From a virus: a stretch of 22,087 nucleotides of DNA. Within the stretch, counting starts at the first letter, position 1. Every line of letters begins with the position of its first letter. Below the pieces are notes generated by a model. That model saw only the letters and a list, made by a program, of their open reading frames with translations, had not been told where the DNA came from and ran no database searches. The translations under genes were made by a program, and so were the position numbers. Shown here one piece after another: positions 7,164-17,574 of the stretch. The stretch lies in the IMG/VR virus record IMGVR_UViG_3300030380_002799, positions 1 to 22,087 of that record. One strand, given 5' to 3'.

Positions 7164-7546
7164 TGATTGGACAGTTATTAGGCCCTGTTGCAGGTTTAGC
7201 TAGTAGTTGGCTCGATGCCAAGACTACCAAGCAGGCGGCTGAAGCAAAGCTAAAGCTTACTGAAGCCGAAGCAAAAGCAAAGATACTTTTGTCAGAAAAA
7301 ACAAGCGTTGCCGATTGGGAGCGCATAATGGCAGAAAATTCTAAAAGTTCATGGAAAGACGAATTTTTTGTAATTGTTCTAAGTATTCCATTAATTTTGG
7401 CGTTCATACCGGGTGCCGAAGGTATTGTAGACAGGGGTTTTGAACAGCTTCATAAAGCACCGGACTGGTATTTTTACAGTTTGGGCATTGCAATTTCGGC
7501 CTCTTTCGGTGTCAAAGGGTATAAACAATTTACTAGGAGAAAGTAA
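7163..7546 (+). CDS. Holin, gene-transfer-agent three-TM type
   Basis: Holins make the membrane lesions that time lysis and release the endolysin. The 127-residue protein has a hydrophobic start (MIGQLLGPVAGLASSWLD), a Lys/Ala/Glu-rich helix (about 20-50), the segment DWERIMAENSKSSWKDEFF (51-69), a membrane segment (about 69-84) and another (about 102-117), ending in a basic tail. This order matches the family I remember as GTA_holin_3TM (PF11351), common in alphaproteobacterial phages and gene-transfer agents. The start overlaps the stop of the basic peptide and the stop overlaps the endolysin start, giving the classic holin-endolysin pair. Confidence 0.82.
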   Translation: MIGQLLGPVAGLASSWLDAKTTKQAAEAKLKLTEAEAKAKILLSEKTSVADWERIMAENSKSSWKDEFFVIVLSIPLILAFIPGAEGIVDRGFEQLHKAPDWYFYSLGIAISASFGVKGYKQFTRRK

Positions 7547-8022
7547 TGAGTGGATTTAAATTAAGTAGACGTAGCCTTGACAGGCTAGAAGGAATTGATG
7601 ACGGGCTACAAGCCGTTATTAAGATGGCTATTACGCTTACAAAAACCGATTTCGGAGTTGTGCAGGGTATGAGAACCATCGAACAGCAAAAAGAGTTGGT
7701 GGCCTCCGGTGCATCCCAAACGCTAAAATCAAAACACCTTGAAGGTAAGGCTTTCGACATTATGGCCTTTGTGAACGGCCGGGCAAGTTGGGAGTTGAAT
7801 TTGTACGATGATTTGGCTGACGCGATAAAAGAAGCAGCTATTAATCTTAACGTGCCTATATGTTGGGGTGCCGCTTGGGGTACGCCAGAAATGCCTTATC
7901 CTATGGACATTCGTAAGTGGGAGGGGACTATGGAAGAGGCTATGAATGCATATATAGACCTAAGACGATCTCAAGGTCGTCGTCCTTTCATTGACGGCCC
8001 CCATTTTGAGTTAATTGACTAG
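7546..8022 (+). CDS. Endolysin, M15-family L-alanyl-D-glutamate endopeptidase
   Basis: The enzyme cuts the peptide stems of peptidoglycan, between L-Ala and D-Glu by comparison with phage T5 endolysin. The metal-binding signature is clear: SKHLEGKAFDI with His64 and Asp71, and a C-terminal DGPHFEL with His153; these are the three zinc ligands of the M15 fold. The region VVQGMRTIEQQKEL (38-51) and WGAAWGTP (near 107) are also typical. The length of 158 residues fits a catalytic domain alone without a wall-binding domain, usual for phages of Gram-negative hosts. AGGAG at 7534-7538 is the ribosome site and the start overlaps the holin stop. There is no signal peptide, so it needs the holin. Confidence 0.94.
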   Translation: MSGFKLSRRSLDRLEGIDDGLQAVIKMAITLTKTDFGVVQGMRTIEQQKELVASGASQTLKSKHLEGKAFDIMAFVNGRASWELNLYDDLADAIKEAAINLNVPICWGAAWGTPEMPYPMDIRKWEGTMEEAMNAYIDLRRSQGRRPFIDGPHFELID

Positions 8023-13516: not shown

Positions 13517-14106
13517 TGCGACTTGAGTTTCTAGAACCAACCTTGGAAAGAAATATTGTAAAAGAACTTTTACAATGGTCCAAAACAGTTTTGGAAGAAA
13601 AAAACCCTTCTTTTAATGATATGCCCGCTTGTCCTTTTGCACAAAAAGCGTGGCAAGACGGCAAAGTTTCAATTATTTTTAAATACGAAAACTCATTTCA
13701 ATGTTTGTATTCATTGGTAAGTGCTTTTGACGACAACTTTGAAGTAGCTATAATTATAGATTTAGATTTTGAAAAAGATCCTGAATCCTTCCATGATTAT
13801 TTGCATGAGATGAACAAAGCTATTTCTCAAGGCATGTTTATTGATAAAGATATTTGGTTAATGGGTTTTCACCCAGATGACGACGGTAATGAATTCGTAG
13901 CAGACGTGGCCTCAGATTTTGAAGCGCTTGTGGACAAAGAGTATGCAATGATCTTTGTTCAAAGATTATCAAAATTGCAAGAAAGCGCAGACAAACTAGC
14001 AAAAAGAGGTTATTATAAGATTTATGAGCGAGATTATAACGCTCGTGAATTATTCGACCATAGATCAAACTTGTACAGGAGACTTAAAAATGGCAATGAG
14101 ACCTAG
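13516..14106 (+). CDS. Unknown 196-residue protein with a CPFA motif
   Basis: I cannot assign a function. The notable motif is MPACPFAQKAWQDGKVSIIF (residues 36-55), reminiscent of the CPFA segment of DUF1415-type bacterial proteins; it is followed by alternating strands and helices (LYSLVSAFDDNFEVAIIIDL). FHPDDDGNEFV and a charged helical C-terminus complete a globular protein. Unlike its very basic neighbours it is acidic, looks like a soluble enzyme or metal protein rather than a structural one, and is out of place in a structural block. Start is inside the previous stop (TAATG); no separate ribosome site is seen. Its end overlaps the next gene by 17 bases. Confidence 0.75.
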   Translation: MRLEFLEPTLERNIVKELLQWSKTVLEEKNPSFNDMPACPFAQKAWQDGKVSIIFKYENSFQCLYSLVSAFDDNFEVAIIIDLDFEKDPESFHDYLHEMNKAISQGMFIDKDIWLMGFHPDDDGNEFVADVASDFEALVDKEYAMIFVQRLSKLQESADKLAKRGYYKIYERDYNARELFDHRSNLYRRLKNGNET

Positions 14107-14221
14107 AAAAAAAATGACAAAAACAAAGAAAATGCGTGGCGGTGGCATGGTTAAGAAAATGCGTGGCGGTGGCATGGTTAAGAAAATGCGCGGCGGCGGC
14201 ATGGTTAAGAAGAAGAAATAA
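14090..14221 (+). CDS. MRGGGMVKK tandem-repeat basic protein, 43 residues
   Basis: After MAMRPRKKMTKT the protein is three perfect copies of KKMRGGGMV followed by KKKK. Every residue of the repeat is Lys, Arg, Gly, Met or Val, so it is strongly basic and probably unfolded alone. AGGAG (14077-14081), eight bases upstream, identifies this ATG rather than an upstream in-frame one at 14024. I have seen MRGGG repeats in many marine phage proteins; none has an established function to my knowledge. It overlaps the previous gene by 17 bases and precedes the head-completion gene by three. DNA or lipid contact is a guess based on charge. Confidence 0.72.
   Translation: MAMRPRKKMTKTKKMRGGGMVKKMRGGGMVKKMRGGGMVKKKK
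14126..14206 (+). repeat. Three tandem 27-bp coding repeats
   Basis: Units at 14126-14152, 14153-14179 and 14180-14206 each encode KKMRGGGMV. The first two are identical in DNA; the third differs at two silent third positions (CGC for CGT, GGC for GGT). Near identity suggests recent slippage or unequal recombination. Confidence 0.9.
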
Positions 14222-14224
14222 GAT

Positions 14225-15229
14225 ATGCCAAACTATACAGACCTTACTGTCACTGTTAAATCAACAAGCGACGGAAACAAATATTATATTAATAATATGC
14301 GTCAAATGCCTTTAGCGTTGACAGAGGGGTCTGTGTATCGTTTTGATTTATCTGATTCAACTCTTTCCACGCATGGGTTTAGGTTCTCCGAAACTAGGGA
14401 CGGAACGCACAACTCAGGGTCCGCATATACCACGGGCGTCACTGTTAATGGTACGGCCGGAGAATCAGGAGCTTACATTGAGATCAATGTTGCAGATAAT
14501 GCTCCGAATTTGTTTTATTATTGTATCAACCACTCTGGAATGGGCGGTACAGTTGAAACCGTTGGCGGGTCGAGTTTTTCTCAATTTGCTTTAAACGTTG
14601 CAGATTATGTGGAAGAGGCGTTTGAACGATGTGGACTTGAGGTTCGCACCGGTTATGACCTGAAAACAGCCAAACGCTCTTTAAATTTAATGTTAGCAGA
14701 GTGGGCTAATAGAGGGTTGAACCAATGGACTATTAAAGAAAGAACTTTGGAACTTACACAGGGCACCGGCAATTACGCAATAGCCCCAGACACAATTGAT
14801 ATTCTTTCTGTTGTTGTGCGAAGAGATGGGACCGATTTTTCTTTAGATAGGCTAAGTAGAGATGAGTATCTTAACATTCCTGAGAAAACTACTCAAAGCA
14901 GACCAAACCAATTTTTCTTAGACAGGCAGGTTGCGCCTGTTTTAAAACTGTGGCCGGTTCCTGAGAATGCTACAGATGTTGTTTATTATAATGCGTTAAC
15001 AAGAATGGATGATGCTGTTACTCAGGATGGAACTTTAGATGTTCCTTTTAGATTTTATCCGTGTTTAGCGGCGGGTCTTGCATATTATATTTCTCTTAAG
15101 AGAGCGCCAAATAGAACACAGCTTTTAAAAAGTGTTTATGAAGAAGAGTTTGAAAGAGCTATGACAGAGGATAGGGACAGGGCAAGTTTCAACGTTGTCC
15201 CTAAATATGAATACTATAGGGTCGGTTGA
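14225..15229 (+). CDS. Head-completion protein (P22 gp4-like) with N-terminal cupredoxin-like domain
   Basis: Two domains are joined. Residues 5-112 form a beta-rich domain with His50 (STHGFRFS) and a terminal YYCINHSGMGG giving Cys100, His103 and Met106. This is the type-1 copper ligand set with Cys-x2-His-x2-Met spacing. Residues about 118-334 match gp4-like head-completion/neck proteins: NVADYVEEAFERCGLEVRTG, TAKRSLNLMLAEWANRGLNQ and the end EEEFERAMTEDRDRASF. The second part seals the portal and joins the tail; the first would project from the neck. The normal gp4-like start would fall near residue 118, so the first part is an added module. The ribosome site is weak. The end overlaps the next gene (TGATG). 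Confidence 0.85.
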   Translation: MPNYTDLTVTVKSTSDGNKYYINNMRQMPLALTEGSVYRFDLSDSTLSTHGFRFSETRDGTHNSGSAYTTGVTVNGTAGESGAYIEINVADNAPNLFYYCINHSGMGGTVETVGGSSFSQFALNVADYVEEAFERCGLEVRTGYDLKTAKRSLNLMLAEWANRGLNQWTIKERTLELTQGTGNYAIAPDTIDILSVVVRRDGTDFSLDRLSRDEYLNIPEKTTQSRPNQFFLDRQVAPVLKLWPVPENATDVVYYNALTRMDDAVTQDGTLDVPFRFYPCLAAGLAYYISLKRAPNRTQLLKSVYEEEFERAMTEDRDRASFNVVPKYEYYRVG

Positions 15230-16038
15230 TGGCAAGATTCGCTACAGGAAAACACGCTTACGGTATTTCTGATCGAAGTGGTCAGAGGTATCTCTATCGT
15301 GAAATGAAGCGAGAATGGAATGGTCTTTTAGTTGGACCAGATGAATATGAGCGAAAACACCCTCAATTAGGTCCTTTTAAAAAAGTGGATGACCCTCAAG
15401 CGTTGAAGGATGCGAGGCCGGAGCCGAATTTGACTCAAGAAAGGGCTGTTCAACATGGATTTAACCCTGTTGGTTTTGCAGGCATATCTGGGTTGTCTCC
15501 AGACAATTTACTCGCTCCTTCGTGCGTTGTAGGGACCGTAACGCCTCCCGGTCAAGGCTCTGATAGCGCAACAGATACCATAGTCATGGCGGCGGGTAGT
15601 TTTACTTTAACAGGTCAAGACGTGAGTTTGACCGCTTCTAGCACAACTTTAGTCTGTGATGTTGGTAGCTTTACCTTAACGGGTCAAACTGCTACTTTTG
15701 GTTCTTTTGAAACTCTCACAGTAACCGTACAAAGCACGGGATACGGCAATAAGTATTATATAGGTGGATCTCAAACTCCAACACTTACCTTAAATGAAGG
15801 AAACACTTATCGTCTTGACCAGAGCGATTCAAGTAACGGCGGTCACCCTATAAGATTTAGCACCACTTCTGATGGAACACATGGTGGAGGTTCTGAGTAT
15901 ACTACAGGGGTAACAACTGCAGGTACTCCCGGTAGCTCTGGTGCTTACACACAGATAGTCGTAGCTGTAGGCGCACCTACGTTGTATTACTATTGTTCCA
16001 ATCATAGTGGAATGGGAGGCCAAGCGAACACACCATGA
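15229..16038 (+). CDS. Structural protein with C-terminal cupredoxin-like domain
   Basis: The N-terminus (ARFATGKHAYGISDRSGQRY, then a Trp/Pro-rich part to about residue 70) is a small domain I recall from neck or tail modules of marine phages. The middle (about 115-160) has two GSFTLTGQ repeats, a beta-strand spacer. The C-terminus (about 162-268) is a second copy of the domain in the preceding protein, with His206, Cys256, His259 and Met262 (YYYCSNHSGMGG). By hand about 64 of 106 positions are identical between copies, without gaps. The ATG at 15229 overlaps the preceding stop; a TTG one codon earlier is less likely. A short surface-exposed virion or tail protein is inferred. Confidence 0.82.
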   Translation: MARFATGKHAYGISDRSGQRYLYREMKREWNGLLVGPDEYERKHPQLGPFKKVDDPQALKDARPEPNLTQERAVQHGFNPVGFAGISGLSPDNLLAPSCVVGTVTPPGQGSDSATDTIVMAAGSFTLTGQDVSLTASSTTLVCDVGSFTLTGQTATFGSFETLTVTVQSTGYGNKYYIGGSQTPTLTLNEGNTYRLDQSDSSNGGHPIRFSTTSDGTHGGGSEYTTGVTTAGTPGSSGAYTQIVVAVGAPTLYYYCSNHSGMGGQANTP

Positions 16039-16682
16039 GTTTTACATATGATTCATTAACACAAGCAATAAAGGACTATACGGAAAACACCGAAACGTCC
16101 TTTGTTGCTAATATAGACACTTTTATTAAGGCTTCTGAAGAGAGAATATTAAAAACAGTACAGCTTGATCTTTTTAAAAAGAACGTAGCCGGATCGATGA
16201 CGGCTTCAAATAAATATTTGGCAAAACCTTCTGATTTTTTAGCTCCTTTTTCTTTATCTCTTAAAACCGGTGGATCTGTTAGATTTATTGAATTTAAAGA
16301 CGTTAGTTTTGTTCAAACGTTTAGTCCGGATGAGAGCCTTACAGGCACTCCGGAATATTATTCGGTTTTTGATATAGATAATTTTATTCTTGGTCCTACT
16401 CCAAACGAAAATTTAACCGTTGAAATCCATTATTTTTATCGTCCGGCAAGTCTTACTGCCGGAGCAGGATCGGGCACAACGTGGTTAAGTGAAAATGCAG
16501 AACTGACTCTTTTGTACGGTAGTCTTATCGAAGCTTACATTTTTATGAAAGGGGAGTCAGATATTCTTCAAATGTATGATAAACGTTTTCAAGAAAGTTT
16601 AGTTGGTTTAAAATTATTTGGAGAATCCAAAGAAAACACTCAAGATTATCGTGTTGGTCGCGTTAATCTACCAAAACAGTAA
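16035..16682 (+). CDS. Head-tail adaptor-like structural protein
   Basis: At 215 residues, the protein starts with a helical part (TYDSLTQAIKDYTENTETSF, IDTFIKASEERILKTVQLDL). A beta-rich middle (IEFKDVSFVQTF, PEYYSVFDIDNFILGPTP) and an end with ELTLLYGSLIEAYIFMKGES follow. This layout is that of small adaptor proteins linking the portal to the tail, like those of SU10-type podoviruses and other marine phages; the match is from memory and the exact family name uncertain. It overlaps the previous stop (ATGA) and follows the gp4-like gene closely, as expected of neck genes. Confidence 0.72.
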   Translation: MSFTYDSLTQAIKDYTENTETSFVANIDTFIKASEERILKTVQLDLFKKNVAGSMTASNKYLAKPSDFLAPFSLSLKTGGSVRFIEFKDVSFVQTFSPDESLTGTPEYYSVFDIDNFILGPTPNENLTVEIHYFYRPASLTAGAGSGTTWLSENAELTLLYGSLIEAYIFMKGESDILQMYDKRFQESLVGLKLFGESKENTQDYRVGRVNLPKQ

Positions 16683-16691
16683 GGCAGCATA

Positions 16692-17129
16692 ATGGCTATT
16701 ACACAAACGACATGTACTTCATTTAAGGTTGAGCTTTTTAAAGGAGAGCATGACTTTGATTCACACACTTTTAAAATTGCTCTTTATACAAGTTCAGCAA
16801 CATTGGGTGCAACTACTACTGCTTACAGTTCTAGCAACGAAATTACAAATACATCAGGCAGCGCTTACAGTGCGACCGGGAAATCTCTCACTCTTGCAAG
16901 CACGTTTCCAAAGGCTTCTGGAACAACCGCCCTTGTTGATTTCGACAACGTAGAATGGGCAAATGCAACTTTCACTGCACGAGGTGCTTTGATCTATAAT
17001 GACACACACTCTTCCAAAGCAGCCGTTGCTGTGTTAGACTTTGGGGGTGACAGGTCTGCTTCAAACAGCACCTTTGAAATACAATTTCCAATAGCGGATG
17101 CTTCGTCTGCTATCCTAAGGATAACATAG
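16692..17129 (+). CDS. Beta-rich structural protein, unknown role
   Basis: A 145-residue protein with strand-rich motifs: SFKVELFKGEHDFDSHTFKI, ALYTSSATLGATTTAYSSSN, and TFTARGALIYNDTHSSKAAV followed by AVLDFGGDRSASNSTF. I recognise the overall pattern ('FKIALYTSxATLxxxTTAY', 'ARGALIYN', 'VAVLDFGG') from tail or baseplate-region proteins of many phages, without known function. AAGG (16681-16684) lies seven bases before the ATG. It is probably related in fold to the next gene, which shares the 'LAVALSNTAP' type of start and similar length. Confidence 0.75.
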   Translation: MAITQTTCTSFKVELFKGEHDFDSHTFKIALYTSSATLGATTTAYSSSNEITNTSGSAYSATGKSLTLASTFPKASGTTALVDFDNVEWANATFTARGALIYNDTHSSKAAVAVLDFGGDRSASNSTFEIQFPIADASSAILRIT

Positions 17130-17139
17130 GAGATAAAAA

Positions 17140-17574
17140 ATGGCATCCTTTACTAAAGTAAATGACTTTGTTGAAAACGCAGTTGAAGCTATGAACTTAG
17201 GGACAGATACCCTCGCAGTTGCTTTGTCAAATACTGCACCCGGTTCTGAATCAAGCAATCCAACGGGAGATTCTAACGGTATATTGGCTAATGTAACGCA
17301 AATCAGTTACACAAACTGCTCTTCAAGAACCTTAACTACAAGTTCTTCTTCACAAACAGGAGGAACTTACAAGCTTGTTGTGGCTGATTTGACGCTAACC
17401 GCTTCAGGCACGGTTGGTCCATTTAGGTATATATACTTGTACGACGACACGGTTACTTCCCCCGCCGACCCTTTAATTGGTTTGTATGATTATGGGGCTA
17501 GCGTGACATTAAACAATGGAGACACTTTTACATTAGATTTCAGCCCTTCAAACGGTGTAATTCAACTAGCGTAA
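17140..17574 (+). CDS. Beta-rich structural protein, related in layout to its neighbour
   Basis: A 144-residue protein. The opening ASFTKVNDFVENAVEAMNLG with DTLAVALSNTAPG is a motif I know from marine phage tail-region proteins. The middle is Ser/Thr-rich (YTNCSSRTLTTSSSSQTGGT) and the C-terminal part (FRYIYLYDDT, LIGLYDYGASVTLNNGDTFT) is beta. AGGAG (17128-17132) is seven bases before the ATG. The same size, position and fold-like pattern as the upstream protein suggest an old duplication, but identity is low by eye. Role is unknown; a tail or fibre-base protein is likely from context. Confidence 0.73.
   Translation: MASFTKVNDFVENAVEAMNLGTDTLAVALSNTAPGSESSNPTGDSNGILANVTQISYTNCSSRTLTTSSSSQTGGTYKLVVADLTLTASGTVGPFRYIYLYDDTVTSPADPLIGLYDYGASVTLNNGDTFTLDFSPSNGVIQLA

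Follow-up and report, generated by a model that had tools for sequence, protein, structure and literature searches.

What are two copies of a domain that resembles a blue-copper protein doing in the structural genes of a marine phage, and does the resemblance extend to a working metal site? The question is raised by P1 and P2, neighbouring open reading frames in a linear virus record (IMGVR_UViG_3300030380_002799) of 22,087 nucleotides. This whole stretch, hereafter the window, also encodes a portal, a major head protein and two SU10-adaptor-family proteins. A sequence-only reading had proposed that both proteins carry a cupredoxin-like domain with a complete set of type-1 copper ligands, one upstream His and a terminal Cys-x2-His-x2-Met, and that one copy is joined to the neck protein and so expected on the particle surface.

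Two related domains in neighbouring genes

That observation is correct. The best local alignment of the two proteins joins residues 3-112 of P1 to residues 159-268 of P2 without a gap, with 64 identities and a score of 324, whereas 500 shuffles of domain 1 scored at most 77. His50/206, Cys100/256, His103/259 and Met106/262 are in register, as is a further pair, His62/218. Two details need correction: the identities number 64 of 110 columns rather than 64 of 106, and the offset from the first His to the Cys is 50 positions, so that 49 rather than 50 residues lie between them. The features of the locus are collected in Table 1.

Table 1. Features of the window around P1 and P2, with the evidence for each.
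Position	Strand	Feature	Evidence
7546-8022		Possible M15 peptidase, likely endolysin	PF13539, E 0.00014, below cut-off
14024-14221		Small basic protein with repeats of MRGGGMVKK, directly before P1	Similar repeat proteins lie at this place in relatives
14225-15229	+	P1, 334 aa: SU10-type adaptor protein with N-terminal cupredoxin-like domain	Open frame; PF24175
14237-14560	+	Cupredoxin-like domain 1, P1 residues 5-112	AlphaFold2 pLDDT 90.3, pTM 0.86; Foldseek best PDB hits CueO and cupredoxin-fused nitrite reductase
14372-14374	+	His50, predicted first ligand	Just before strand 52-55; His in 57 of 58 viral and 83 of 83 genome-contig domains
14522-14542	+	Cys100-x2-His103-x2-Met106, predicted ligand loop between the last two strands	Invariant in covered rows; Cys100 is the last residue of strand 96-100, next strand 107-113
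14657-15184	+	Adaptor domain, P1 residues 145-320	PF24175 (SU10_adaptor), E 1.7e-16, 61.7 bits against a cut-off of 27
15229-16038	+	P2, 269 aa, ATG at 15229: small N-terminal domain, long flexible linker, C-terminal cupredoxin-like domain	phrog_28581 on residues 1-122, E 3e-18; AlphaFold2 block at about residues 11-40 pLDDT 86-88, linker below 50
15229-15414		N-terminal domain of P2, looks like a degenerate ribbon	Locus L089 (5533-5787) has Cys-x2-Cys twice where the window has none
15706-16032	+	Cupredoxin-like domain 2, P2 residues 160-268	Same strand order as domain 1 in the AlphaFold2 model of P2, block pLDDT 54-86; 64/110 identity to domain 1
15844-15846	+	His206, predicted ligand	Aligned to His50
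15994-16014	+	Cys256-x2-His259-x2-Met262, predicted ligand loop	Aligned to Cys100/His103/Met106
16035-16682	+	P3: second SU10_adaptor-family protein, no cupredoxin-like domain	PF24175, E 3.4e-18
16692-17574		Two neighbouring genes	Both match phrog_644

The assignment of P1 as a neck protein is supported by its match to the curated SU10 adaptor family and by the recurrence of the same fusion, a cupredoxin-like domain followed by an adaptor, in locus L044 and in phage 023Pt_psg01 (locus L085). Pfam gave no hit to the adaptor part of these two, which was judged by sequence similarity to P1. In phage SU10 the adaptor, gp11, is a dodecamer between portal and nozzle and docks the long tail fibres (PMC9509320), but lacks the extra N-terminal domain of P1. 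Twelve copies per particle is therefore an inference for P1, whose own oligomeric state was not examined. Six PHROG families of marine phage tail-fibre, baseplate-wedge and virion proteins (30742, 693, 27200, 6005, 677 and 708) contain homologous stretches of 70-110 residues and are catalogued as structural proteins with no cupredoxin or metal assignment.

Predicted fold and distant relatives

The sequence-only reading had stated that its proposal would fail if the predicted fold were not a Greek-key beta-sandwich, and the prediction came out in its favour. Domain 1, modelled by AlphaFold2 with 47 aligned sequences, is a beta-sandwich of nine strands, and the placing of His50, Cys100, His103 and Met106 relative to these strands is that of type-1 copper ligands in cupredoxins. 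The spacing Cys-x2-His-x2-Met is also that of amicyanin. A Foldseek search of the PDB places CueO first (E 3.6e-4), followed by the cupredoxin-fused nitrite reductase of Hyphomicrobium (7e-4), and also returns rusticyanin with a TM-score of up to 0.60. These scores are modest (0.50-0.60 by query length), and antibody V domains follow at E near 4e-3 to 1e-2, so the call rests on rank plus ligand placing. The distances between the ligand side chains, which had likewise been named in advance as a possible refutation, were not measured. Among predicted viral proteins 69 match at E below 0.001, led by cyanophage S-TIM5 and including proteins named 'beta-sandwich protein' of Marseillevirus- and Pithovirus-named records. 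Cultured carriers of the domain include S-TIM5 and the pelagiphages HTVC028P and EXVC032P Baldr. The model of P2 is poor overall (pLDDT 58.5, pTM 0.38) and was not used for a fold search, although its C-terminal strands repeat the order of domain 1.

Direct sequence searches of Pfam, NCBIfam and the PDB did not assign the domain. Only 2 of 47 family members match PF00127 (Copper-bind; plastocyanin, pseudoazurin, azurin), at best with E 0.021, and domain 1 of the window does not match at all. Both window domains are below the PF00127 cut-off, and a cyanophage relative reaches 19.8 of the 21.2 bits required. Neither domain 1 nor the 47-member alignment matches the amicyanin model TIGR02657. The search of solved structures by sequence gave only antibody V regions, which I read as convergent on account of a Tyr-Tyr-Cys strand end. 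Phage Ig-like domains are optional, mobile beta-sandwich modules on surface proteins and have no metal site; for these, only chance-level Pfam matches and the antibody hits in sequence and fold searches were obtained, which settles a kinship neither way, and the sequence relation itself was not tested.

Profile-profile comparison, by contrast, does link the family to copper proteins. Against four Flavobacteriaceae sequences that pass the PF00127 cut-off the family scores a probability of 96.5 (E 7.5e-10), with His, Cys, His and Met aligned. Direct hhalign comparison with five pseudoazurins was weak (8.8%, without the His pair), and a bridge set of phage copies and those bacterial sequences was needed. 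The family matches the bridge set at 99.5 (E 5e-23) and the bridge set matches pseudoazurins at 91.8 (E 7e-7), with Cys and His in register, although the bridge set contains the PF00127 members themselves.

Conservation and exchange of the domain

Conservation of the ligands among homologues was the remaining condition on which the proposal had been staked, and they are conserved. In 54 distinct domains of a first viral scan the four residues never vary, and in a wider set they are present in all 57 covered viral rows and all 83 genome-contig rows, apart from one copy that lost the whole site. The genome-contig scan used the Cys-His-Met motif, so these counts are biased for those three residues but not for His50. 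Two samples are cleaner. Loci fetched with the N-terminus of P2, and thus not chosen for the motif, hold 25 complete A-type and 13 B-type copies, all with Cys-x2-His-x2-Met, and the three copies flagged as lacking it run off contig ends. Sixteen annotated phage records searched whole hold 31 distinct copies, of which 23 keep both the His and the Cys-His-Met motif, 7 lost both and 1 kept the His only (Fisher p = 3e-6). Two of the 23, the cyanophage copies L450 and L458, have Cys-x2-His-x3-Met, one residue longer in the ligand loop. Several copies are orthologues, so the true evidence is weaker than this p suggests. Keeping or losing the residues together is what a shared metal site predicts.

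Comparison with close relatives shows that the domain is exchanged. Between the window and the close relative L003, domain 1 (14225-14560 against L003:3001-3336) has synonymous divergence near saturation (pS 0.73) with pN 0.026, whereas the adaptor part of the same gene has pS 0.20. In DNA, domain 1 is about 72-92% identical to L003 and the adaptor part about 92-98%, while the region upstream of P1 is unrelated, suggesting a probable recombination boundary inside P1. Domain 1 thus has a different history from the rest of P1, as after recombination, and its protein sequence is held by selection. In L003 and in L002, a relative 98.8% identical to the window over P1, P2 ends in FDEG without a cupredoxin-like domain and is followed by a separate gene of 216-217 codons, whose C-terminal 104 residues are a divergent cupredoxin-like domain; in L002 the contig ends inside that gene, before the domain. 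This gene (L003:4488-5138 and loci L178-L257) has a T4 gp9/10-like N-terminus (PF07880, E 1.3e-6) and is nearly invariant in protein, with pS 0.70 and pN 0.031 over the last 104 residues across 55 distinct DNA versions.

The domain is also optional. Of 101 P2 genes in loci selected by P2, 17 carry the fused copy, 13 have the separate gene, 71 have no copy fused or within 900 bases downstream, and none has both. The absence of both is not significant (p = 0.12), and although 0 of 183 P2 genes overall had both, those loci were partly chosen for these features, so I do not claim mutual exclusion.

Outside phages, the genome-contig scan returned phage-like loci in metagenome bins but also clear chromosomal genes of marine bacteria. 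These comprise SAR86 and related gammaproteobacterial proteins with lipoprotein-like starts, large proteins in Bacteroidetes bins, and Cellvibrionales proteins with signal-peptide-like starts and two or three tandem copies. The lipoprotein-like signals end in ACGGGG, and all signals were called by eye. In two Cellvibrionales genomes a DsbD-family gene lies directly before the tandem gene (L147:3224-5446 and L160:3142-5394; Pfam was run on L160 only, and L147 was assigned by similarity). Bacterial carriers at L160:5563-6660 and L134:5887-6411 match PF25489, an At5g54830-like domain, only weakly (E 0.0005 and 0.04, below cut-off).

What the proposed metal site might do

Taken together, these results support the sequence-only interpretation. 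The homology, the predicted fold, the conservation and joint loss of the ligands, the fusion to the adaptor and the exchange of modules come directly from the computations, whereas copper binding, surface exposure and a part in adsorption are inferred from them. With moderate confidence, I propose that P1 and P2 each carry a cupredoxin-like domain with a complete type-1 copper ligand set, belonging to a large marine family that phages use as an optional, swappable module on neck, tail-fibre and baseplate proteins and that marine bacteria use in lipoproteins and secreted proteins. That the site binds copper is more likely than not, although copper content, colour and redox activity were not measured. 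It is likely that the domains stand on the outside of the neck, probably in 12 copies if P1 forms a dodecamer like the SU10 adaptor. That the module helps the particle bind the host surface, the metal keeping the ligand loop folded or contributing to the contact, is only a tentative suggestion without direct evidence. In this view the seven or eight of 31 copies in annotated cyanophages that keep the fold but not the site show that the scaffold can be used without metal, so the metal may serve stability or a particular contact and not every carrier.

Two alternatives are unlikely but deserve attention. First, the sandwich may be a metal-free structural or adhesive building block, like phage Ig-like domains, with the four residues inherited without function, as the sequence-only reading itself allowed. 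The site-dead copies in cyanophage structural proteins, the dispensability of the domain and its presence in many unrelated structural proteins favour this. However, the ligands are kept or lost together, are among the few invariant columns in domains of about 40-60% identity, and lie in a sequence that is held while synonymous sites are near saturation. Such structural leftovers thus describe a minority of copies in other phages but fit the two window copies poorly. Second, the site may bind zinc, iron or Cu(I) only, as a structural clamp without type-1 chemistry. Ligand type alone does not fix the metal, and iron in phage tail fibres through His-x-His sites is documented for T4 (as cited in PMC11705849), but Cys, two His and Met at cupredoxin positions on a cupredoxin-like fold is the classic copper set, and the profile links run to copper proteins.

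Less likely still is a metal decoy, in which copper-loaded domains would attract the particle to host metal-uptake receptors, a copper version of the Ferrojan Horse idea. A surface position is likely and the iron version has been proposed for marine phages (PMC11705849), but no receptor or host is known here, a buried four-ligand site would be a poor donor, and none of my results speaks for it. A redox role, with electrons passing to or from the host envelope, for instance to act on disulfides, is the least likely, since the window holds no redox partner and the DsbD-family gene beside the tandem copies in two neighbouring Cellvibrionales genomes is a thin basis that says nothing about phages.

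The fold and site are of a kind already known from the small blue copper proteins, and what is new is their use as a swappable virion module, fused to virion proteins rather than serving as a free electron carrier. Searches for cupredoxin or plastocyanin-like domains in phages found no earlier description of the family in the papers covered, which excluded most subscription journals. The boldest reading is that many ocean phages build particles with working type-1 copper centres on neck and tail, a copper-bearing class of virion that draws on a domain shared with secreted proteins of marine bacteria and uses the metal in adsorption or in redox contact with the host envelope. This is possible, but less likely than not. 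If copper is bound, a common type of marine virus particle is a metalloprotein assembly, which bears on how phages recognise bacteria and on how trace metals are held in seawater viruses. It would also give a function to sequence stretches now filed only as tail fibre or virion structural protein in cyanophages and pelagiphages.
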